A stretch of DNA of 64,000 nt, taken from positions 1 to 64,000 of the forward strand of contig PNKL01000004.1 of the NCBI GenBank assembly GCA_013822425.1. Reading direction: 5' to 3'. The notes below the pieces were generated by a model. It ran no database searches, was not told where the DNA came from, and worked only from the letters and a program-made list of their open reading frames with translations. The stretch is from Gemmatimonas sp. GTDB lineage: Bacteria > Gemmatimonadota > Gemmatimonadetes > Gemmatimonadales > Gemmatimonadaceae. This document shows, piece by piece, positions 50,928 to 63,573 of the stretch (its first letter is position 1; each line of letters begins with the position of its first letter). Both the position numbers and the translations under genes were made by a program.

Positions 50928-51263
50928 ATGCGTTGTCTTTTCTGCAGAATCGTGGCGAAGGAAATCCCCGCGACCATCGTTGCCGAAGACGAGCATTGCC
51001 TCGCCTTTCGGGACATCAACCCGCAGGCGCCGACGCATATTCTGGTGATACCCAAGGCGCACGTGCCGTCGCTGAACCAGATGACGGATCCCGCGCTGGC
51101 GGGGCGCGTGCTGGCGTTCGCGCGCGACCTGGCGGCCAAGGAGGGGATCGCCGAGCGCGGGTATCGCGTGGTGATCAACACCAACGCCGAGGCGGGGCAG
51201 ACGGTCTTTCACCTGCATGCGCACCTGCTCGGCGGACGGGAGCAGGGATGGCCGCCAGGATAG
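50928..51263 (+). CDS. HIT family protein (HINT-like nucleoside phosphoramidase)
   Basis: The 111-residue protein is a HINT-type histidine triad hydrolase of nucleoside monophosphate derivatives. The HIT motif HLHAHLLGG is at residues 95-103, with the three catalytic histidines at 95, 97 and 99. CLFCRIVAKEIPA at the N-terminus and the FRDINPQAPTHILVIPKAH block near 28 match PKCI/HINT-1. Gene follows rsmE after a repeat spacer. Confidence 0.93.
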   Translation: MRCLFCRIVAKEIPATIVAEDEHCLAFRDINPQAPTHILVIPKAHVPSLNQMTDPALAGRVLAFARDLAAKEGIAERGYRVVINTNAEAGQTVFHLHAHLLGGREQGWPPG

Positions 51264-51327
51264 GAGGGGGAGGGGTGCAGCGGCTAAGAAGGGGAGAGGA
51301 GTGGAGAGAGGGGTGAGGGGGGAGGGG

Positions 51328-52140
51328 GTGGACAGCACGCGGAGTTCCTCGAGACGCTGGGTCGCACGTCTGACTTTGGCGACAGTGGCCCTCGTGGCCA
51401 TCGCGGCGGCTATCGCCGCGTGGGAGTTCAGGGACGATGCGGGGGCGCCGCCGAACTACGTCGCGCGGGATGCGGTGCTGCGGGCGGCGCCGATACGCGT
51501 GTACCGCGCCGACATCGCACGCGTGTTCGTCTGGTTCTTCGGCAACGACGTGGGATTCTGGGGCGCGCAGCAGCGACTGGCGGCCTCGCTCGCGCGGCGC
51601 GGCGTGGACGTAGTGGGCCTCGACCTGCGGGCGTGGCTGGCCGCGCAGCCGCGCGCGTCGGCTTCGACGAGGGCGGAAGCGTTCCGCACGGCGATGGCAG
51701 ACCTGATGGCGCGGGCGGAGCGCGAACTCGGCGACACGGCCGTGCCGGTTGTGGTGGCCGGGCATTCCGTCGGCGCGGAGGTGGCGCTCTGGATGGCGGC
51801 CGACCGTCCGCCGCCTCGCCTTCGCGGCGTTGTCGCGCTGTCGCCCGGGGCGCGCGGCCACCTGAGGGTCACGGCCTCCGATCTCGCCTTTGGCGAGCCG
51901 ACGGAGCCGGGGAGCTTCGCCGTGGACTCGGTGCTGCGTGCCATCCGCGGCGACGTGCACGTGGCGCTCGTGCGCGGCGCCAACGACCGGCTGCGCCGCG
52001 TCGATTCACTGCTGATGGCGTCGCGTCCCGGCACGCGACGCGTGGTGATTCCGCTGGCCTCGCACTCGATGAAACGGCTCTTCATTGCTGGCCCGATGAT
52101 CGAAGACGCCGTGGAGTGGGCGGCGGGAATCGTGCGCTGA
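51328..52140 (+). CDS. VirJ-like alpha/beta hydrolase
   Basis: A 270-residue protein with an N-terminal membrane anchor (TLATVALVAIAAAIAAWEF) and an alpha/beta hydrolase-like core: RVFVWFFGNDVGFWGAQQRL near residue 65, GLDLRAWLA near 97, and the nucleophile elbow in VVVAGHSVGAEVALWMA near 140. The first block resembles AcvB/VirJ (whose usual form has GDGGW at that place). VirJ/AcvB proteins hydrolyse lysyl-phosphatidylglycerol. Substrate here is inference. GTG 51328 has a strong purine-rich site; an upstream frame crosses the HIT gene end. Confidence 0.65.
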   Translation: MDSTRSSSRRWVARLTLATVALVAIAAAIAAWEFRDDAGAPPNYVARDAVLRAAPIRVYRADIARVFVWFFGNDVGFWGAQQRLAASLARRGVDVVGLDLRAWLAAQPRASASTRAEAFRTAMADLMARAERELGDTAVPVVVAGHSVGAEVALWMAADRPPPRLRGVVALSPGARGHLRVTASDLAFGEPTEPGSFAVDSVLRAIRGDVHVALVRGANDRLRRVDSLLMASRPGTRRVVIPLASHSMKRLFIAGPMIEDAVEWAAGIVR

Positions 52141-52934: not shown

Positions 52935-53024
52935 TCTCCGACACCTCGTAAACGCCCGCCCTATTGAACTGGTATCTCATCTGCCTATTTTGTCTCCGTG
53001 CAGCGATTCAACCTGCGGGAGCAG

Positions 53025-54476
53025 ATGATGCAGCCTCTTCGACTTGGCCCATTCGCGGCGATCGTGTTCGCCGCTCCGTTGTTTTCACAGCAGGCGCCGG
53101 CGGCGACTGGCGCGGCCGCGACGCCGGTGACGCTCTCGGCATCGGTGCGCGTGCGCGCGGAGTCATGGGACTGGTTTGATGCCGGCCCCGCGGGCGAGTA
53201 CTCGTACGCGCACGCGCTGGCGCGGGTGGCGGCGGCGCGCGCCTCCGGACGCTGGCAGTGGCGTCTCGAAGCGGCGGTGCCGGTGCTGCTGGGCCTGCCG
53301 GACGACGCCACGCTGCCAGCGCCGGCCGGGCAACTGGGACTCGGCAGCACGCTCTACGCCGCCAACGACGCGAAGCAGTCGGTCACGGGCCTCTTCGTCA
53401 AGCAAGCCTTCGTGCGATGGGCGGACGCTGGCAAGTCGCTGCGCGTGGGCCGGTTCGAGCTTGGCGACGGCGCGGAGCGCGCGGCCGCCGATCCGTCGCT
53501 CGCGGCGCTGAAGGCGCAGCGCATCGGGCAGCGGCTCATCGGCCCGTTCGGCTTCTCGGCGGTGGGGCGCGCGTTTGACGGTGCGCACTTCGCGGCCGAC
53601 TGGCGCGGCAAGAACGTCACGCTAGCCGCCATGCGCCCGACGGCGGGCGCCTTCCGCGTGGACGCGCAGCCGGGGCTGCGCGTGGACATGGCGTATGCGG
53701 CGCTGTCGCGCGGCGCACGTTCGGCGACGAGCGAGCAGGACATGCGGCTCTTCGGTCTCTGGTACGCCGACGACCGCGGCACCGTCCCCACGGATAACCG
53801 CACGGCCGCGGCCCGCAACGCGGATCGCCGCCGCGTGGAGGTCCTGACCGTCGGAGGGCACTGGGCGGTGGTGCGAAAGGTGGGCGCGTCGAAGTTCGAC
53901 GCGCTGGCGTGGGGGGCGGTGCAGGGCGGCAACTGGGGGCGGCTGAACCATGCGGCGCACGCCGCCGCGGTCGAGGCGGGCTTCCAGCACGGCGCCCTGC
54001 CGTGGGGAACCTGGCTGCGGGCCGGCTGGCTGCAGACGAGCGGCGACGACGCATCGGCCGACAACCGGCACGGGACCTTCTTCCAGGTGCTGCCGACCCC
54101 CCGGGTCTACGCGCGCTTTCCGTTCTACAACATGATGAACTCGTCCGAGGCGTTCGTGACGGTGCAGGCCAAGCCGCACGCCAAGGTAACGCTGCGCGCC
54201 GGGATGCACGACCTGAGCCTCACCGAGTCATCGGACCTGTGGTACCTTGGCGGTGGTGCCTTCGACGCGCGCGTCTTCGGCTACACGGGGCGTCCGTCGA
54301 GCACTTCGACGTCGCTTGCCCGCGTCTCCGATCTGTCCATCGCCTGGCAGGCGCACAAGCGGCTCGTCGTGGAACTCTACGGCGCCGCGGCGCGCGGTGG
54401 CGCCGTGGTGAAAGGGGCGTACAGCGGCTCGCGCGATGCGCGCTTTGTGTATCTCGAGACTACGTTTACCCGCTGA
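53025..54476 (+). CDS. Alginate-export-family outer-membrane porin (AlgE-like)
   Basis: The 483-residue product has a signal peptide (FAAIVFAAPLFSQ) followed by a predicted beta-barrel. Alternating strands such as LSASVRVRAESWDWFD, WRLEAAVPVLLG, FVKQAFVRWADAGKSLRVGR and the aromatic C-terminus (FVYLETTFTR) are typical for this family; RDxRRVEVL-type ADRRRVEVLTVGGH lies in the middle. Family members export alginate or act as generic porins; next to nrfHA it is more likely to let nitrite or other small anions reach the periplasm. ATG 53025 follows a GGGAGC site; GTG 52998 is an alternative. Confidence 0.75.
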   Translation: MMQPLRLGPFAAIVFAAPLFSQQAPAATGAAATPVTLSASVRVRAESWDWFDAGPAGEYSYAHALARVAAARASGRWQWRLEAAVPVLLGLPDDATLPAPAGQLGLGSTLYAANDAKQSVTGLFVKQAFVRWADAGKSLRVGRFELGDGAERAAADPSLAALKAQRIGQRLIGPFGFSAVGRAFDGAHFAADWRGKNVTLAAMRPTAGAFRVDAQPGLRVDMAYAALSRGARSATSEQDMRLFGLWYADDRGTVPTDNRTAAARNADRRRVEVLTVGGHWAVVRKVGASKFDALAWGAVQGGNWGRLNHAAHAAAVEAGFQHGALPWGTWLRAGWLQTSGDDASADNRHGTFFQVLPTPRVYARFPFYNMMNSSEAFVTVQAKPHAKVTLRAGMHDLSLTESSDLWYLGGGAFDARVFGYTGRPSSTSTSLARVSDLSIAWQAHKRLVVELYGAAARGGAVVKGAYSGSRDARFVYLETTFTR

Positions 54477-54562
54477 GTGATGACGCACGCCGCATTCGCA
54501 GCCACGGTACGAGGGCGACCGATGATGACGACGCCCGGCGTGCCTTCCCGGGCAGCTGACCG

Positions 54563-55033
54563 ATGACCAAGTGGATCCTGTTCGTGATCGCCGCGACGCT
54601 CGGCACGGCCGGCGGCTTGGGCGGCTACACGTTCATCGCCGCCAAGGGCTACTCGTACCTGACCAACGACGCCGCGGCCTGCGCCAATTGCCACGTGATG
54701 CGCGAGCACTTCGCCGCGTGGGAGAAGTCGAGTCATCGCCATGTGGCGGTGTGCAACGACTGCCACGCCCCGCATGACAATGCGGTGCACAAGTACCTGG
54801 TGAAGGGCGAGAACGGCTTCGTGCACTCCATGAACTTCACGACCGGGCGGCACCCCGATCCGCTGCGCATCCGCGCCAAGAACCGCCGCGTCACGCAGGA
54901 CGCCTGCCTGAGCTGTCATGCGGACCTGGCCGCGGGCATGACGCCGGGGGCGCGCGTGGGGCATGCGGCCGCTGGCGACGACGCGCTCGATTGTATTGCC
55001 TGCCACCGCTACGTCGGACACTGGGTACGGTGA
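54563..55033 (+). CDS. nrfH: Cytochrome c nitrite reductase small subunit NrfH
   Basis: A 156-residue membrane-anchored tetraheme cytochrome of the NapC/NirT family that passes electrons from the quinol pool to NrfA. One N-terminal helix (ILFVIAATLGTAGGLGGYTF) is followed by four CxxCH sites: residues 40-44 (CANCH), 64-68 (CNDCH), 115-119 (CLSCH) and 144-148 (CIACH). The protein ends shortly after the fourth site, as in NrfH. nrfA starts 86 bp downstream, across a repeat. Confidence 0.93.
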   Translation: MTKWILFVIAATLGTAGGLGGYTFIAAKGYSYLTNDAAACANCHVMREHFAAWEKSSHRHVAVCNDCHAPHDNAVHKYLVKGENGFVHSMNFTTGRHPDPLRIRAKNRRVTQDACLSCHADLAAGMTPGARVGHAAAGDDALDCIACHRYVGHWVR

Positions 55034-55035
55034 GG

Positions 55036-55075
55036 CGGATGGTGATGGTAGATGGTAGGTAGTAGATGGTGGATG
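55036..55075. repeat. gatggtagatggtagg spacer repeat between nrfH and nrfA
   Basis: The gap contains ggatggtgatggtagatggt and aggtagtagatggtggatg, the same word as in 441-540 upstream of accC, here without an inverted partner. nrfA starts at 55120 after a further gattgtgattcctgattgtc-like stretch that recalls the dnaJ-prmA repeat. Confidence 0.7.
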
Positions 55076-55119
55076 TGATTGTGATTCCTGATTGTCGATC
55101 CTCGATGGAGATTCCTCCC

Positions 55120-56505
55120 ATGTTCGTTCGTTCCCGCCGCGGCGTCACGATGCTGACGCTGATTCTCGTTGCCGTCGCGTTCGGCCTTGCGGCCATTCTC
55201 GCGGGCTTCATGCTGCGCGACATCACGCGCAAGCAGGACGAGGCGCGCAACCCGTTCTATCGTGTCGTCGAGCTCACCGACACGACGACCGACGCCGCGC
55301 TGTGGGGGAAGAACTTCCCCCTGCAGTACGACGGCTACCTGCGCACCGTCGACATGGTGCGCACGCGCTACGGCGGCAGCGAGGCGATGCCGCAAGCGCC
55401 CACGACGCGCGACCCGCGCGAGGTCGTCTCGCAGTCGCGGCTCGAGGAGGACCCGCGGCTGGTGCAGATGTGGGCGGGGTACGCGTTCGCCAAGGACTTC
55501 CGCGAGGAGCGCGGGCACGCGTACATGCTCACCGACCAGATGTACACGGAGCGGCAGCAGGTCGTGAAGCAGCCGGGGACGTGCATCAACTGCCACGCCT
55601 CGACGTACGCCTCGATGATCCGGCTCGGCAACGGCGACGTGATGAAGGGGTTCGAGGCGCTCAACAAGCTGCCGTACTTCGACGCGCTCAAGGAGACGGG
55701 GAAGCATCCGGTATCATGCGTGGACTGCCACGATCCGGCCTCGATGGCGCTGCGCATCACGCGCCCGGCGTTCATGGAAGGGATTCGCGCCTACAAGGCC
55801 TCACTCGGCATCGCGAACTACGACGTGAACACGCAAGCGACGCGCGCCGAGATGCGCAGCTACGTCTGTGGACAGTGCCACGTGGAGTACTACTTCAAGG
55901 GCCCCGACAAGCGCCTCACGTACCCGTGGGCCAACGGGCTCGCCGGCGACTCGATCCTCGCCTACTACCAGAAGGACGGGCACAAGGACTGGGTGCATAC
56001 GGCGTCGGGCGCGCCGGCGCTCAAGGCGCAGCACCCGGAGTTCGAGCTGTTCAGCCAGGGCATCCACGCCAGGAGCGGCGTGGCCTGCGCCGACTGCCAC
56101 ATGCCGTTCCAGCGCGCGGGGGCGCAGAAGATCAGCGACCACCACGTGCAGAGCCCGATGCTGATGGTGAACCGCGCCTGCCAGACGTGCCACAAGCAGT
56201 CGGAAGAGGAACTCAAGGGGCGCGTGACGCTCATCCAGGACCGCACGTTCGGCATGCGCAACATGGCGATGGACGCCCTGCTCGAACTCATCGCCGACGC
56301 GGCGACGGTCCGGAAGACCGACTCCACCAGCGCGGCACTGAAGAAGGCGCAGGATTACCAGCGCCAGGCGCAGTTCCTGCTGGACTTCGTGGAAGCGGAG
56401 AACAGCGTGGGGTTCCATGCGCCGCAGGAGGCGGCACGGCTGCTGCAGAAATCGACTGATTTCTCGCGGAAGGGGCAGATGGCACTGCGGCCCTTGATGA
56501 GATAA
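55120..56505 (+). CDS. nrfA: Ammonia-forming cytochrome c nitrite reductase NrfA (CxxCH type)
   Basis: A 461-residue pentaheme enzyme that reduces nitrite to ammonium in the periplasm with electrons from NrfH. An uncleaved N-terminal helix is likely (TLILVAVAFGLAAILAG). Five heme sites are at 155-159 (CINCH), 200-204 (CVDCH), 250-254 (CGQCH), 323-327 (CADCH) and 354-358 (CQTCH). The first, active-site motif is CxxCH where E. coli has CxxCK. Other catalytic features are present: WAGYAFAKDFREERGHAY near 118, YY after the third motif, and His in QGIHARSGVACADCH. ATG 55120 has GGAG nine bases upstream. Confidence 0.93.
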   Translation: MFVRSRRGVTMLTLILVAVAFGLAAILAGFMLRDITRKQDEARNPFYRVVELTDTTTDAALWGKNFPLQYDGYLRTVDMVRTRYGGSEAMPQAPTTRDPREVVSQSRLEEDPRLVQMWAGYAFAKDFREERGHAYMLTDQMYTERQQVVKQPGTCINCHASTYASMIRLGNGDVMKGFEALNKLPYFDALKETGKHPVSCVDCHDPASMALRITRPAFMEGIRAYKASLGIANYDVNTQATRAEMRSYVCGQCHVEYYFKGPDKRLTYPWANGLAGDSILAYYQKDGHKDWVHTASGAPALKAQHPEFELFSQGIHARSGVACADCHMPFQRAGAQKISDHHVQSPMLMVNRACQTCHKQSEEELKGRVTLIQDRTFGMRNMAMDALLELIADAATVRKTDSTSAALKKAQDYQRQAQFLLDFVEAENSVGFHAPQEAARLLQKSTDFSRKGQMALRPLMR

Positions 56506-56728: not shown

Positions 56729-57442
56729 TTATCTCACGAGTGCTAGAATCGTCCTCCCAATTTCCCCGTACGCCCCATCCAGGTGATGTCCACCGCTCAT
56801 CTTCACTACCACCGCCGGCGGCGCGAGGTCGGGACAGATGGTGTTCGTCTCATCCTCGCCGTAGAAGCAGAGTAGTGGCGTGGTGCCGAGCCGGTGAATC
56901 TCGGGGAGCAGCGGCACATCGTCCGGTGTAGGCGCGGTGCGCAGCAGGTCGCGCATCCGGAAATGAAAGCTGGCCGTCCTCTCGCTGCCGATGAGCACCA
57001 CGGCCGCAACGATCCCGCGCAGGTGCGGCGGGAGGCGGTTCACGGCGAAGGGCGCGACACCGGCGCCGCGTGAGTAGCCGATGACAAGCACCGAATCGCG
57101 ATGCCATTTCGCGCGGTACGCGGTGATAATGCGTGCGAGATCGGCGGCGGCCTGGTCGGGCGTCTTTGCGGTCCACAGGTAGGCGCGCTGGTTGAAGCCG
57201 ACCACCGGGATGCCCGCGGCCGCCAACTGCGCCGACACGCCCTCGTCGAGCGCCACCCAGCCGCCATCGCCGGTGAGGAAGACGGCGAAGAACCGCCCCG
57301 CGCCGGTCGCGGGCACCTCGGTGAGCGGCAGGTCGGCGAGCGCGGCCGCCTGCGCGCGCGCTGTGGAACTCGCGACCATCAGCGCGAGCAGCAGGAGGGC
57401 GCCGCGTGCGCCTTGGGTGATGCGGGCGATGCGGACGCTCAT
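56729..57442 (-). CDS. VirJ/AcvB-type lysyl-phosphatidylglycerol hydrolase (putative)
   Basis: The 237-residue exported protein (signal peptide LLLLALMVASSTARAQA) has the VirJ domain: FAVFLTGDGGWVALDEGVSA near residue 50, GFNQRAYLW near 82, VLVIGYSRGAGVAPFAVNRL near 119 with the nucleophile Ser, and CFYGEDETNTICPDL near 190, then KMSGGHHLDGAYGEI with the terminal His. AcvB/VirJ proteins hydrolyse lysyl-PG in the periplasm. Its ATG overlaps the mprF stop (ATGA), so the two are co-translated, supporting a synthase/hydrolase pair. Confidence 0.85.
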   Translation of the reverse strand: MSVRIARITQGARGALLLLALMVASSTARAQAAALADLPLTEVPATGAGRFFAVFLTGDGGWVALDEGVSAQLAAAGIPVVGFNQRAYLWTAKTPDQAAADLARIITAYRAKWHRDSVLVIGYSRGAGVAPFAVNRLPPHLRGIVAAVVLIGSERTASFHFRMRDLLRTAPTPDDVPLLPEIHRLGTTPLLCFYGEDETNTICPDLAPPAVVVKMSGGHHLDGAYGEIGRTILALVR

Positions 57443-60003
57443 TTCGTCACGATCCCAGTGACGCCGCCGGCGATGAGCGAGGCGACGTTGGTGAGAATCC
57501 GCGGCAGCATGAGCCCGCCGGGCGAGGCGAGATATCGGGGCTCCCAGACGGGATCGAACTTCTCCTTGTACTCGCGCAGTCCCTGGAAGTTGTAGAAGTT
57601 CTCGCCGAACCGGTACACGAAGGCGCCGATGCGATTCCAGAGCGGCGCGAGCGCGCGGTTCTCGAGGCCGGCCAGCGGCGCCATGCCGAGGTTGAAATGT
57701 CCGAACCCCTCGGCGCGGCCGTGCAGCATCAACTGAATGAACAGGTACTCCATCACGTTGTCAGGCGCCTGCGATGAGTAGCGCATCAGGTCCACCGTAA
57801 TCTCGTCGCCGGGCTGACCGCGCAGGACATTGGCGAACGCGACGACGCGCCCCTCGCGCCGCACCACCGCCATCGGAAAGCGGCGGAGATACGATTCGCT
57901 GAAATAGCCGAGTGAGAATCCCTTCTCGCGCACGCGCTTGGCCGAGAGCCATTCGTCGGAGACCTCGCGCAGCTCGGGGAGCAGTGCAGGGACGTCGTCC
58001 ACGGGGACGATGCCGAACGCGCCGCCGTCCTTTTCTACCTGATTGACCACGCGCCGCATGCCCTTGCGCGCGCCCCCCTGCAGCGAGAAGTCGGCGAGGG
58101 GCACGCGCGCCTCTTCGCCGAGCTTGAGGAGCGAAAGCCCGAGGTCGAGGTAGAGCGGCAGGTTGTGCATGCGCACTTCGTAGAACACGGTGGCCGACCC
58201 GTGCCGGTCGGCGAGTTCACGAAAGCGCCACGCAAGCTCCTGGCGTTCGCGCGGCGCCCCCACCGGATCGCCGCACGAAATGAACGAACGCCCGGCGACG
58301 CCGTACATCACGAAAGCGTTGCCGGCCTCGCTGAAGAGCAGCGACTTGTCGCCGAGCAGCGCCAGGTTCGCATGCACATCGGGGGAACGGTGCACGACGG
58401 CGGCGACGCGCTCGAGCACGGCATCGTCGGGCGGGGCGAACTGCGGTGGGGCAGGGCGCAGCAGCCGCTGCAGGGCCACCACGAGCAGCAGGCCCATGAC
58501 GCCGACCGACGCGCGCAGGAAGCGCGGCGCGTCACCGCGCACGGCGAATTCCCACCACAAGTCGTGACTGTAGTCCACGTGCTTGTACGCGAAGAGCCCC
58601 AGCCAGAAGGTGGTGCCGACGGCGAGCGTGATGGCGGCGGTCCAGCCGGGGGAGAAGACCCCGCTCGTCATCGAGGCGCGGCGATAGAAATGCCGGCGCG
58701 CCGGCACCAGCGCGGTGAGCACCAGCGCCAGAAAGAGCGCTTCCTCGAAATCGCCGCCCTTGAGCAGCGACGCGACGATGCCGGCCACGAGGGCGGCGCT
58801 CGTCAGCCACCACGCCGCATCGAGCCGGCGGCCAAGGCCCCAGGCGAGCAGCAGCAGCGCCGCACCCGCCAGACTCGCCGTGAAGTGCGACAGCTCGATG
58901 ATCGCGAGCGGCAGGATGTCAGCCAGCCAGTGGAGTCGGGACCGCACGCCCGGCGTGGCGCCCGACATCAGCAGGATGGTGCCCGAGACGAAGATCGTCA
59001 GCGCCAGCACGGACGGCACCACGCCCGGCACCCACCGCCCCGCCACCTGTGCCGCACGTGCGATGCCGTGGCGGGCGCGCGCCACCTCATGCGCCGCGAG
59101 CAGTGCGAGGGCGGCGCCAAGCGGAACGAGATAGTACACGGCGCGATACGCCAGCAGGGCGCCGACGAGCCCGGCCGCCGGAATCTCGTCCTTCAGGAGC
59201 ACCACGATGACGGTCTCGAAGATGCCGATGCCGCCCGGCACGTGGCTCACGAGCCCGACGACCTGCGCGAGCAGGAAGGCGGTGAGGAAGGCGCCGAATG
59301 GCACCGGATGGTCGCCCGGCAGCAGCGCGAACAGCACGGCGCCGGCCGCCACCCAGTCGAACGACGACGCGGCCACCTGCGCGGCGGCCAGTGCGGGGCG
59401 CGGGAGGGTGAACTCCCACCCCTTCACCCGCAGCGGTGCGCGACGCAATGCACTCGCCGCGAGGTAGCCGAGCACGAGCAGCAGCAGCAGCGCGCCAACG
59501 ACGGCGAGCGACGTCACGGGGAGGCCGAGCAGGTCGGGCGTGGCGCGGGGCTCGAGCAGCAGGACCGCGCCGCCGATGCTGAGCACGCCAAGCCAGAATG
59601 TCACCGCGTTGAAGCCGACGGCCAGCGCGATGTCGGCGCTCGACAGGCCCCACGCCGAGTAGAAGCGATAGCGCAGCGACCCGCCGAGCAGCATATGGAA
59701 GCCCAGCGACTGTGAGAGCGCGTAGGCCACGAAGCTCACGAAGGCGACGCGCCGCAGGGCGAGCGCGCGCTGCACGTAGCGCAGGGCCAGCCAGTCGTAG
59801 CTGATGAGCGCCGCGTAGCCGAGTGCCGTGAGCGCGAGGCCAGTGAGGAGGCGCGCACCCGGGACGGCGCGCAGCGCGAGGCGAATGTCCCGATAATGCA
59901 GCGTCGCCAGCTCGTGGTGCAGCGACCAGAGCGCCAGGCAAAACACGAGAGCCCCGGCAAGAACGCCGAGCGCGAGGCGCGAGTTGCGGAAGAAGTTTCG
60001 CAT
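57439..60003 (-). CDS. mprF: Phosphatidylglycerol lysyltransferase MprF
   Basis: An 854-residue integral membrane protein that adds lysine to phosphatidylglycerol, reducing the negative charge of the membrane and raising resistance to cationic peptides. The N-terminal flippase part has about twelve or more helices with VGLVSHVPGGIGIFETVIVV near residue 250; the C-terminal DUF2156/LPG-synthase domain includes SFISCGDPVGAPRER near 577, VFYEVRMHN near 608, LGYFSESYLRRFPMAVVRRE near 700 and FGHFNLGMAPLAGLENRAL near 762. It follows the large fusion gene after 49 bp and precedes the VirJ-type gene. Confidence 0.92.
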   Translation of the reverse strand: MRNFFRNSRLALGVLAGALVFCLALWSLHHELATLHYRDIRLALRAVPGARLLTGLALTALGYAALISYDWLALRYVQRALALRRVAFVSFVAYALSQSLGFHMLLGGSLRYRFYSAWGLSSADIALAVGFNAVTFWLGVLSIGGAVLLLEPRATPDLLGLPVTSLAVVGALLLLLVLGYLAASALRRAPLRVKGWEFTLPRPALAAAQVAASSFDWVAAGAVLFALLPGDHPVPFGAFLTAFLLAQVVGLVSHVPGGIGIFETVIVVLLKDEIPAAGLVGALLAYRAVYYLVPLGAALALLAAHEVARARHGIARAAQVAGRWVPGVVPSVLALTIFVSGTILLMSGATPGVRSRLHWLADILPLAIIELSHFTASLAGAALLLLAWGLGRRLDAAWWLTSAALVAGIVASLLKGGDFEEALFLALVLTALVPARRHFYRRASMTSGVFSPGWTAAITLAVGTTFWLGLFAYKHVDYSHDLWWEFAVRGDAPRFLRASVGVMGLLLVVALQRLLRPAPPQFAPPDDAVLERVAAVVHRSPDVHANLALLGDKSLLFSEAGNAFVMYGVAGRSFISCGDPVGAPRERQELAWRFRELADRHGSATVFYEVRMHNLPLYLDLGLSLLKLGEEARVPLADFSLQGGARKGMRRVVNQVEKDGGAFGIVPVDDVPALLPELREVSDEWLSAKRVREKGFSLGYFSESYLRRFPMAVVRREGRVVAFANVLRGQPGDEITVDLMRYSSQAPDNVMEYLFIQLMLHGRAEGFGHFNLGMAPLAGLENRALAPLWNRIGAFVYRFGENFYNFQGLREYKEKFDPVWEPRYLASPGGLMLPRILTNVASLIAGGVTGIVTK

Positions 60004-60052
60004 GCCGGTTGGAATGTCCGCGCCGGGCGCCGTACGCGCACGGCGCGGACAC

Positions 60053-63000
60053 CTATCTGTTCGCCTCCACGGTCGCCTTCCGTTCCAGCGATCCCCAGCC
60101 CACGGTGCGGCCGCGCACCGCCGCCACGAACGACCGCACCACCACCCAGTACATCACCTGCCGATACGCGAATCGCTGCAGCACGATCAGCCAGGTGAGG
60201 GAATACTCCTCGTCAGGTTCCATTATGAAGGCAATCACCGCGCCAAGCCAATCGGCCACCAGGAAGACGGCATAGAAGAGCAGGATCTGGTACAGGTCGA
60301 CCAGCGCGTAGGACTCCCCGAACGACTGCCAGGTCATCCACGCGGAAATGAGCCCCCACGCAAAGAGCAGGTCGGCGAGCGGCGAGAGCGCGGTGAGGAT
60401 CAGCTGAAAGAGCCACGTGTTGGGCAGGGCGACCATGCCCACCGTGCCGTACGCGGGGTTGAACAACGCGTCGCGGTGCTTCCACGCGCACTGCAGCGTG
60501 CCGAACGACCAGCGGAAGCGCTGACGGGCGAGGCCGCGCAGCGTGTCCGGCGCCTCGGTCCACGCGACCGCGCGCTCGGCGTATGCCACCGAATAGCCGG
60601 CGCGGTGCACCGCGATGGTCAGGTCCTGGTCCTCGGCCAGCGTGTCGTCGCTGAAGCCGCCGGCGGAAACGACCAGCTCCTTGCGCCACGCCCCCACGGC
60701 GCCGGGCACGACGGTGATGCAGTCGAGCAGGGCAAAGGCGCGGCGGTCGAGATTCTGGCTGGTGACGTACTCCAGCGCCTGCCAGCGCGTGACGAGGTTC
60801 AGGCGGTTGCCCACCTTGGCGTTGCCCGCCACCGCTCCCACGGCAGGGTCGGCCAGCGGGGCGACGAGTTCGACGACGGCCTGCCGCTCGAAGAGCGTGT
60901 CGGCATCCAGGCAGATGACGATGTTGGCCGAGGCGCGCGCGATGCCGTAATTCAATGCGCTCGCCTTGCCGCCGTTGGGCTTGGAGTAGACGGCGACGCG
61001 CGCGTTGCCGTCGAACGCGCGGCGCGCCACCGCATAGGTGTCGTCGGGCGATCCATCATCCACCACCACCACGTCGAGCGCGCCCGGGTAGCGCTGCGCC
61101 AGCAGGGAGTGGACGGTGCGCTCGATGACCTTGGCCTCGCGGAAGGCGGGAACGATGACGGTCACGGGCGGCGCAAAGTTCGCGGGCGGCGCACGCGTGC
61201 CGCGCCCGCGCTGAATCAGCGCGAGCACAAGAATGAAGACGAGCCGTCCGACGCCAAGGATGACGGCGGCGAAGAAGAGCCAGTACAGGCCCCAGTCCAG
61301 CGCGCCGATGGCGCCGAAGGCGAGCAGGTCCACCGATCGCTGGGCGGTGGAGCGCCGCGGCAGCGGCGGCATGGCCTCGTCGCGCGTGACGCCGGCGAGT
61401 TCCGAGGCGAGCACCAGCGTGTCGCCGCGCGCCTTGAGTGAGTCGATGATCGGACCGAGCGCCGCCACGGTGGCGGCGCGATCGCCGCCGCCGTCGTGCA
61501 TGAGCACGATGCTGTTCCCGTCGCGTCGCTTGCGCAGGGTTTCGGCGATGATTGCACCAGGGTTCCGGAGCCGCCAGTCTTCGGAATCGATCCGCAGGCC
61601 CACCGACACGTACCCCAATGCGGTGGCCATCGCCACCGGATCGAGTTCTTCGGCCGTGGTGGGTTCGGCATCGCCGAAGTACGGCGGGCGGAAGAGCACG
61701 GTGCGACGGCCCAGCAGCGTCTCGATGAGCCGTTCGGTGGCCACGAGTTCGAGCCGCCCCACCCACGGCGCGGTGAGCGACAGGTTGCGGTGCGTGTACG
61801 TGTGGTTGCCGATTTCGTGGCCTTCGCGATAGATGCGGCGCAGGAGACCGGGGCGATCGTCGGCGTCGCGGCCGACCACAAAGAACGTCGCGACGGCGCC
61901 GCGACTGCGCAGCGTATCGAGAATCGCCGGCGTCCAGCGCGCGTCCGGGCCATCGTCGAACGTCAGCGCCACCTTGCCTTCGGAGGCGCCGAAGCGCTCG
62001 ATGATCCACGGCGACGGCAGCGTCGTGAGCGACTCGGCGACGATGAGGCCACGGGTCGGGTCGAGCTGCACCGTGCGCGTGCCGCCCGCCGGTGGCGCGC
62101 GCAGGCGCAGCAGTTCGCCGTCGCCTTGGAACTCCACCTGGTAGCCGGCCGGAATCCGGGTGATCGCCGCCGGCTCCGTGGTGGCCGTGTGACGGTCGAG
62201 CAGCGCCCACAGCGAGGGATCCTCGGCGCCCAGCCGCCAGAGCGCGACGCCCGCCGCATGCAGGCGCGACACCGTGCCCAGGTGATTCCATCCCGTGGCG
62301 GCGTCCAGGAACCACGCCACGTGGCTCGTGCTGTCGGGGTCATCCCACGCGACGTAGGGATTGAGCGACACGGAGTCGAAGTGCACGGTGCTGCGGCGCT
62401 CGCGCACCGTGCTGATCATCTCCTGAAAGGTGACGGCGCGGCCGTGCAGGCGGCCCCCCGCGTCGCTCCAGTCGTAGCCGAAGGCGCCGAGGGCGAGTAT
62501 CGCCTTGGCCGGCCCGACGGCCGCCGACAGCGTGGCGGCATTCGTGTCGTACCACGCCTGGCTGGCGACCGGCCCCGGTTCGCCGCGTCCGAAATGCTCG
62601 TCGTAGAGCATCACGAAGACGTAGTCGCACGATGCGGCGACGGCGCGTGCGGTCGTCGCGTCCACGCCTGCGCCGATAGTGGCGGTGACCATCCGTCCGG
62701 CAGGCGCAAGCGCGGCGCGCAGGTCACGAAGGAACCGCACCCAGTCGTCGGCGAGGTCGTCGGGGACTTCCTCGAAATCGATGGTAATGCCGGCCAGCGC
62801 GTATTGTCGGGCGACCGCGGCGAGTCGGGCGATGGCGCGGTGTCGCGCGTCGGGGTGCGTGAGGAGGCGGCGCAGGCCGTGCGTGGCAAAGACCCCCGAG
62901 CGCGAATCGAAGTTGCTCACCATCGCGAGGATGCGCGGGCGCGTGGCCGGTGGGAGCATCTGGTTGGCGAAGAGCACCCGTGGATCCACGTCGAGGCGCA

Positions 63001-63502
63001 GCGAGTCGCCCTGGTCGGCCACGAAGATCCACTCGCTCACGACCCAGTCGAGCGCGTCGGCATGCGCGCGGTACGCCGCAAACGAGTTGTCGTCCCACTT
63101 GACGTTGAACCCGACGACGAGCGGCGGCCGCGCCGGGTTGGCCGCGCGCGGTAGGGCGGGGCGGGGGGCCTCGCGCGCGGCGTCGCGCGCAACGGCGAGG
63201 TGCTCCGGACGCTGGGCCTGCGGGGCGGGGCGCAACGCGAGCGCCGCCGTGAGGCGCCGGCGGGCGCTCAGCCGCGCCCGTTCACGGCGCGAGTTGGTAA
63301 ACCCATTGCGGCGCCCACCCCCCACGGCGACGCGCGCCGACTGAATGGAGGGCAGGAGCGGGGGGACGAGTATGCTGATCATCAACCCGAGTGCGAGCAG
63401 GGTCGAGATGGCGCCGATGCCCACGGCCACACGGCGCACGCGCCGCCAACGGCGGCCGGAGGGGTCGATGAAAACTGATTTGGAGGGGAGGGCGGAGGGC
63501 AT
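60053..63502 (-). CDS. Fused GH18 - polysaccharide deacetylase - GT2 glycosyltransferase
   Basis: A 1149-residue membrane protein. After one N-terminal helix (near residues 25-50) come a GH18 chitinase-like domain with TIDFEEV near 238 (catalytic Glu region), a NodB-type deacetylase domain with LTFDDGPD near 511 and GHEIGNHTYTHRNLS near 560, a transmembrane helix, and a GT2 synthase domain with VVVDDGSPDDT near 815, CLDADT near 870, EDQDLT near 945 and QRFRWSFG near 980, then C-terminal membrane helices. The combination suggests making, trimming and deacetylating a beta-1,4 or beta-1,6 N-acetylglucosamine polymer. Product and direction are inferred. Confidence 0.88.
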   Translation of the reverse strand: MPSALPSKSVFIDPSGRRWRRVRRVAVGIGAISTLLALGLMISILVPPLLPSIQSARVAVGGGRRNGFTNSRRERARLSARRRLTAALALRPAPQAQRPEHLAVARDAAREAPRPALPRAANPARPPLVVGFNVKWDDNSFAAYRAHADALDWVVSEWIFVADQGDSLRLDVDPRVLFANQMLPPATRPRILAMVSNFDSRSGVFATHGLRRLLTHPDARHRAIARLAAVARQYALAGITIDFEEVPDDLADDWVRFLRDLRAALAPAGRMVTATIGAGVDATTARAVAASCDYVFVMLYDEHFGRGEPGPVASQAWYDTNAATLSAAVGPAKAILALGAFGYDWSDAGGRLHGRAVTFQEMISTVRERRSTVHFDSVSLNPYVAWDDPDSTSHVAWFLDAATGWNHLGTVSRLHAAGVALWRLGAEDPSLWALLDRHTATTEPAAITRIPAGYQVEFQGDGELLRLRAPPAGGTRTVQLDPTRGLIVAESLTTLPSPWIIERFGASEGKVALTFDDGPDARWTPAILDTLRSRGAVATFFVVGRDADDRPGLLRRIYREGHEIGNHTYTHRNLSLTAPWVGRLELVATERLIETLLGRRTVLFRPPYFGDAEPTTAEELDPVAMATALGYVSVGLRIDSEDWRLRNPGAIIAETLRKRRDGNSIVLMHDGGGDRAATVAALGPIIDSLKARGDTLVLASELAGVTRDEAMPPLPRRSTAQRSVDLLAFGAIGALDWGLYWLFFAAVILGVGRLVFILVLALIQRGRGTRAPPANFAPPVTVIVPAFREAKVIERTVHSLLAQRYPGALDVVVVDDGSPDDTYAVARRAFDGNARVAVYSKPNGGKASALNYGIARASANIVICLDADTLFERQAVVELVAPLADPAVGAVAGNAKVGNRLNLVTRWQALEYVTSQNLDRRAFALLDCITVVPGAVGAWRKELVVSAGGFSDDTLAEDQDLTIAVHRAGYSVAYAERAVAWTEAPDTLRGLARQRFRWSFGTLQCAWKHRDALFNPAYGTVGMVALPNTWLFQLILTALSPLADLLFAWGLISAWMTWQSFGESYALVDLYQILLFYAVFLVADWLGAVIAFIMEPDEEYSLTWLIVLQRFAYRQVMYWVVVRSFVAAVRGRTVGWGSLERKATVEANR

Positions 63503-63573
63503 CGCTGACTGCTACACCGGATTTCGGGAAAGGGTGAGGAGCTTGAGAGTACCGTTTTCTGAGGGAATGGTCG

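Follow-up and report, generated by a model that had tools for sequence, protein, structure and literature searches.

The combination of an MprF with the hydrolase AcvB is a known operon, lpiA–acvB (PMC13197417, PMC13135905). AcvB hydrolyses lysyl-phosphatidylglycerol (lysyl-PG) by means of Ser336 and His433, with Asp271, Asp340 and Asp370 also required, and binds LpiA, its MprF (PMC13197417). Asp370 was docked near the epsilon-amino group of lysine, which it is thought to recognise; the same position is occupied by Ser or Thr in Pseudomonas homologues from alanyl-PG producers, and Asp271 and Asp340 are kept across all the homologues aligned in that study (PMC13197417). In Streptomyces coelicolor, the mprF gene sco3397 and the esterase gene sco3396 are neighbouring targets of sigma-E (PMC6767563). 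As for the lipids of Gemmatimonadota, the marine Gaopeijia has been reported to contain PG and an unidentified aminolipid (PMC11651109).

Among polysaccharide enzymes, PgaB unites a deacetylase and a hydrolase (PMC5933820), and a 2020 survey described fusions of deacetylases with glycosyltransferases (GTs) in operons without pgaA and pgaD, with the suggestion that deacetylation takes place at the inner membrane (PMC7112194).

Work on how bacteria change their envelope charge has usually kept lipid aminoacylation apart from cationic exopolysaccharides. The gene set analysed here – found in a 64,000-nucleotide stretch of Gemmatimonas sp. DNA, hereafter the window – and a gene fusion related to it provide genomic evidence of coupling between the two. 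The mprF–virJ pair within the set is of an already known type (lpiA–acvB); what seems to be new is its recurrent linkage with the gene for a trifunctional polysaccharide enzyme (TRI) and the existence of a four-domain fusion, neither of which was found described in the literature searched, where few subscription journals were covered. An earlier note on this DNA knew of no description of the three-gene arrangement, which in the literature searched holds for the linkage of the trio but not for its parts, the MprF–AcvB operon and GT–deacetylase fusions both being known (PMC13197417, PMC13135905, PMC7112194).

The locus, its recurrence and a four-domain fusion

The three genes follow one another on the minus strand (63502-56729) in the order TRI, mprF and virJ, with 49 bp between the first two and an overlap between the last two (Table 1). 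The set itself, its coordinates and domain calls and the 4-bp overlap had been given correctly in the earlier note, as profile matches and open reading frames confirm. The source assembly (3.57 Mb, 99% complete, 206 contigs) contains a single full MprF and a single strong VirJ.

Table 1. Features of the TRI–mprF–virJ locus, in window coordinates.
Feature	Position	Strand	Basis or remark
TRI, trifunctional polysaccharide enzyme (GH18–CE4–GT2), 1149 aa	60053..63502	-	profile matches
GH18 domain of TRI, residues ~128-435, SleL/YdhD-like	62198..63121	-	PF00704
CE4/NodB deacetylase domain of TRI, residues 507-703	61394..61984	-	PF01522
GT2 domain of TRI, residues 778-1001, PgaC/NodC/HAS-like	60500..61171	-	PF13641
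MprF, 854 aa, predicted bifunctional synthase/flippase for aminoacyl-phosphatidylglycerol	57439..60003	-	profile matches
MprF synthase domain (LPG_synthase_C)	57526..58392	-	
VirJ/AcvB-type predicted aminoacyl-PG hydrolase, 237 aa	56729..57442	-	PF06057
ATGA overlap of mprF stop and virJ start, 4 bp	57439..57442	-	
Inner terminal inverted repeat of insertion sequence	63542..63560	.	partner C4 65256-65274; outside the module

Upstream of the operon lies an insertion sequence (IS) that the earlier note did not mention; it carries a DDE_5 transposase and 19-nt inverted repeats, extends from window position 63542 to position 65274 of contig C4, and lies 40 bp from the start codon of TRI, on its upstream side. 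Since the intergenic region upstream of TRI is shorter in the close relatives compared, the operon promoter may have been displaced by the IS in the source strain. A scan for promoters and terminators returned two promoter-like sites, where 0.5 would be expected by chance; of these, one is on the operon strand, within the end of TRI.

Elsewhere in the window, a second, distant VirJ-like alpha/beta-hydrolase with a GHSVGAE motif is encoded at 51217-52140 on the plus strand (E 3e-9 against the operon VirJ); proteins resembling it are found downstream of TRI–MprF on contigs L005 and L011, and weak VirJ matches convergent to mprF in genomes G056, G062 and G091. Convergent with the operon, at 52998-56505 on the plus strand, are genes for an NrfHA-type nitrite reductase (54563-55033 and 55066-56505), preceded by one for an alginate-export-like outer-membrane protein (52998-54476).

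Relatives of TRI were taken from 80 contigs (L numbers), and whole genomes (G numbers) come from one draw of 249 Gemmatimonadota; for the survey of about 250 genomes, the query was the C-terminal 565 residues of TRI. TRI, MprF and VirJ occur in the same order on four contigs (L003, L004, L025 and L029) and in the whole genomes G064, G222, G079 and G244; three of the contigs have sequences identical to surveyed genomes (L004 to G027, L025 to G201 and L029 to G114), and L003 may be G222. Besides the window, intact trios were counted in no fewer than seven genomes of Gemmatimonadota, which belong to four genera and have differing chromosomal neighbourhoods; L005 was left out of this count because its VirJ is truncated. 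TRI–MprF without a strong VirJ is seen in L011, L021 and G168. The earlier note had proposed a gene-neighbourhood search and would have abandoned its idea had the trio been absent from all other genomes; because the trio recurs in further genera, its adjacency, judged by gene order, is not accidental. In two of the trio genomes (L089 and L090), MprF aligns to the window MprF as two pieces. The gap between the pieces is about 310 bp in L089 and about 165 bp in L090, which points to insertions specific to these lineages around residue 185-210.

Of the 249 genomes, 29 have a strong VirJ, 49 a full MprF and 51 a TRI. Every genome with a strong VirJ also has a full MprF (29/29, with 5.7 expected), which agrees with the earlier proposal of a synthase and a counteracting hydrolase for an aminoacyl-PG. 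VirJ and MprF lie at most 8 kb apart in 23 of the 29, in tandem, divergent or convergent arrangement. TRI and MprF occur together in 25 genomes and are within 8 kb of each other in 12; for TRI and VirJ, the count is 11 of 20. The surveyed genomes being related, these linkage counts are not independent and small p-values overstate the case. Linkage is better argued from how varied the orientations and contexts are.

TRI also occurs without a link to mprF in Acidobacteriota, Caulobacteraceae, Rhodanobacteraceae and many Gemmatimonadota, and so does not depend on the lipid arm. A search for a common partner of TRI in other phyla yielded housekeeping neighbours only (SucCD–OdhAB, IleRS, a 6PGD-like protein and a sigma factor). 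Several Caulobacter (L073, L075, L080 and L081) have a VirJ about 8 kb from TRI, with the acidic residues mostly kept; they were excluded from the trio, as their MprF is on other contigs.

A further arrangement, absent from the earlier note, is a GH18–CE4–GT2–VirJ fusion. In G019, G073 and G236 (contigs L086, L087 and L088), TRI and VirJ form a single open frame without an internal stop (1379, 1410 and 1493 aa, respectively, from stop to stop), and in all three mprF adjoins the fusion gene divergently. An assembly error was considered and ruled out: G019 and G073 were each assembled as one contig, and the three sequences form one clade with a support of 100. At the junction, the tail of GT2 (..GWGxLERKATV) passes straight into a hydrophobic stretch with an AxA-like end, followed by VirJ. 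The simplest reading is that a stop codon was lost between neighbouring genes, the old VirJ signal peptide becoming an extra membrane segment; if the end of GT2 faces the cytoplasm, the fused VirJ would be periplasmic. A VirJ fused to TRI beside mprF suggests a working link between the lipid and polymer arms and, since the fusion is also present in one-contig genomes, it is probably accessible through cultured strains.

The lipid arm and the polymer arm

The window MprF scores 941 bits against the bifunctional model NF033480 (cut-off 600), has flippase and synthase domains that both pass the cut-off (PF03706 and PF09924), and finds its PDB relatives among MprF and LpiA structures. Its synthase domain gives 335 bits against the alanyl-PG synthase 4v34 and 299-300 against LpiA, a difference that is not discriminating alone; no residue rule for the amino-acid specificity of MprF was found in the literature searched.

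VirJ matches PF06057 with 167 bits (cut-off 22). Its closest solved relative is AcvB (PDB, 1e-35), and this sequence match is the informative one, a Foldseek search with the VirJ model having returned general alpha/beta-hydrolases only. In the alignment, the catalytic pair is kept (S124 for AcvB Ser336 and H219 for His433), as are D59, corresponding to Asp271, and the hydrophobic residues at the membrane loop, whereas the conserved Asp340 is replaced by G128, Asp370 by S158 and F337 by R125. VirJ thereby lacks Asp340 and Asp370, two of three acidic residues whose importance in AcvB has been demonstrated, and, by its S158, falls outside the lysyl-PG-specific AcvB subgroup. The window genus has the 'SRGAG' form in common with G027, the fusions and L099, while the form is SRGAD in L090 and SRGAE in L089; these natural variants can serve to separate the roles of Asp340 and Asp370 of AcvB. 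The N-terminus of VirJ is signal-peptide-like, ending, by eye, in ARA before a Q, with a helix predicted at 13-34.

From its co-occurrence in the surveyed genomes, mprF–virJ is well supported as a pair that makes and breaks an aminoacyl-PG, and genetics makes aminoacyl-PG hydrolysis by VirJ likely. VirJ is taken to act like a typical AcvB hydrolase but, because of G128 at the Asp340 position, is not classed as one. The replacement of Asp370 by S158 and of Asp340 by G128 makes lysyl-PG, the lipid named in the earlier note, an unlikely product, and an alanyl-type lipid appears the better guess; with lysyl-PG unsupported, that note's expectation that both products would be cationic becomes doubtful, too.

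TRI consists of an N-terminal membrane helix, GH18, CE4/NodB, another membrane helix, GT2 and C-terminal membrane helices, an architecture already known from the CDD entries GH18_trifunctional and CE4_GT2-like. Both its domain order and its catalytic motifs are those of the GH18–NodB–GT2 trifunctional family. The GH18 catalytic residues Asp242 and Glu244 are present in 88 of 88 aligned TRI homologues, throughout which the CE4 residues D516, D517, H567, H571, R605 and H669, together with P607, D639, D642 and W643, and the DD, DAD, ED and QRFRW (QxxRW) motifs of processive synthases in GT2 are invariant or almost so. The predicted activities are thus in keeping with the earlier idea of a single polypeptide able to make, cut and deacetylate an amino-sugar polymer. 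The best NCBIfam match of TRI is PgaC/IcaA (TIGR03937), at 185 bits versus a cut-off of 422; by that model, its GT2 is a related processive GT2, not PgaC.

In the AlphaFold2 model of TRI, GH18, CE4 and GT2 are folded (mean pLDDT 81), a single long helix connects CE4 to GT2, and long membrane helices lie at the C-terminus; the relative placement of the domains is uncertain (pTM 0.57). The nearest fold relatives of GH18 are SleL and YdhD, GT2 matches hyaluronan synthases, and the PDB sequence relatives are peptidoglycan GlcNAc deacetylases for CE4 and SleL-type enzymes for GH18. Provided that the N-terminal helix inserts N-in, GH18 and CE4 would be periplasmic. No PgaA porin scores above the cut-off in the source genome (best match 29.6 bits versus 366.65; 99% complete, in 206 contigs), so that the TRI product may be periplasmic.

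A proposed coupled envelope module and its alternatives

What was observed here – the order of the genes and their domains, the catalytic motifs, the recurrence of the set, the co-occurrence of its members and the fusion – inclines us, by a narrow preference, towards an inner-membrane envelope module in which an aminoacyl-PG cycle is coupled to a PgaB/PgaC-like polymer machine. Aminoacyl-PG synthesis and hydrolysis and AcvB–LpiA binding are drawn from the literature on relatives. MprF would transfer an amino acid – alanine or another small residue being likelier than lysine – from aminoacyl-tRNA onto phosphatidylglycerol and flip the product to the periplasmic leaflet, where periplasmic VirJ would split it into PG and free amino acid and so set the level of modified lipid. 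At the cytoplasmic face, GT2 of TRI would polymerise a beta-linked N-acetylhexosamine chain across the membrane, to be partly deacetylated and trimmed by the tethered periplasmic CE4 and GH18. Both arms would be co-expressed and probably in physical contact, given that AcvB binds LpiA and that one clade joins VirJ and the polymer synthase in a single open frame. The identity of the polymer and of the amino acid, the topology, co-transcription, the coupling of the arms and a shared output – the charge or barrier state of the envelope – are what we infer. Counting against the coupled module are the occurrence of TRI without linked mprF in other phyla and in many Gemmatimonadota, the relatedness of the genomes behind the linkage counts, the IS 40 bp upstream of TRI, the acidic residues lost from VirJ and the lack of a PgaA above the cut-off.

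The locus might instead hold two independent envelope modules, a standard mprF–virJ pair having been inserted behind a stand-alone TRI, with only transcription in common. Such an insertion would suit a TRI that is fixed beside YqeY–MutS2–DnaG in the window clade, is followed by another gene, without mprF, in L006 and L007, and is solitary in other phyla; as the linkage is also seen outside the YqeY–MutS2–DnaG site, in L086-L090, and TRI and VirJ are fused within a well-supported clade, we hold this to be somewhat unlikely. Slightly less credit is due to the idea that GH18 and CE4 of TRI act on peptidoglycan or a periplasmic oligosaccharide, with no exported exopolysaccharide, so that the module would serve cell-wall remodelling. 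The proximity of the GH18 fold to the cortex-lytic SleL and of CE4 to peptidoglycan GlcNAc deacetylases speaks for it, as does a PgaA score below the cut-off throughout the source genome, but these two folds are common to many beta-GlcNAc enzymes, and GT2 has the full motifs of a processive synthase and matches PgaC, NodC and HAS, none of which acts on peptidoglycan.

Two further readings concern the substrate of VirJ. If the lipid were lysyl-PG and VirJ a lysyl-PG hydrolase, both arms would be cationic and would lend the surface a positive charge, as the full-length homology of MprF to lysyl-PG synthases such as LpiA and the standing of AcvB as the nearest solved relative of VirJ might lead one to expect; the Asp370-to-Ser158 and Asp340-to-Gly128 differences (PMC13197417) render this quite improbable, and MprF scores slightly higher against 4v34 than against LpiA, which is not discriminating alone. 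Least probable, we think, is that the VirJ domain transfers the aminoacyl group from aminoacyl-PG to the nascent or deacetylated glycan, yielding an aminoacylated polysaccharide, in which case the pocket changes R125, G128, E154 and S158 would reflect a new acceptor.

Comparison with known systems

The nearest systems to the lipid arm are lpiA–acvB of A. tumefaciens, lpiA–atvA of R. tropici and the PA0919-type alanyl-PG hydrolase of P. aeruginosa. With the lpiA–acvB group, the window shares an MprF-type synthase/flippase and a putatively periplasmic VirJ-family alpha/beta-hydrolase with the same catalytic Ser and His, as well as hydrophobic residues in the loop that in AcvB binds the membrane. 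Unlike the two-domain AcvB, however, the window VirJ is single-domain and has Arg at F337, Gly at D340 and Ser at D370, and it lies in a putative operon, or in some relatives a fusion, with a polysaccharide enzyme. Like the Gemmatimonas operon, the S. coelicolor pair sco3396–sco3397 has an MprF adjoining a putative esterase, under envelope-stress control; it differs in phylum, in the identity of sco3396 (of the Pfam Esterase family, not VirJ) and in the absence of a polysaccharide synthase.

For the polymer arm, the counterparts are pgaABCD and icaADBC, which likewise combine a GT2 synthase and a CE4 deacetylase with a glycoside hydrolase, activities provided there by PgaC and the two-domain PgaB. 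TRI, in contrast, holds the three activities in one membrane-spanning chain, its hydrolase is an N-terminal GH18 whereas the hydrolase domain of PgaB is C-terminal, and there is neither a separate pgaD beside TRI nor a PgaA above the cut-off in the source genome. The same domain set recurs in the GH18–NodB–GT2 trifunctional proteins, also in Acidobacteriota, Caulobacteraceae and Rhodanobacteraceae; what sets some of the Gemmatimonadota proteins apart from those elsewhere is the linkage to mprF and the VirJ domain, seen only in Gemmatimonadota, the sole phylum surveyed for it.
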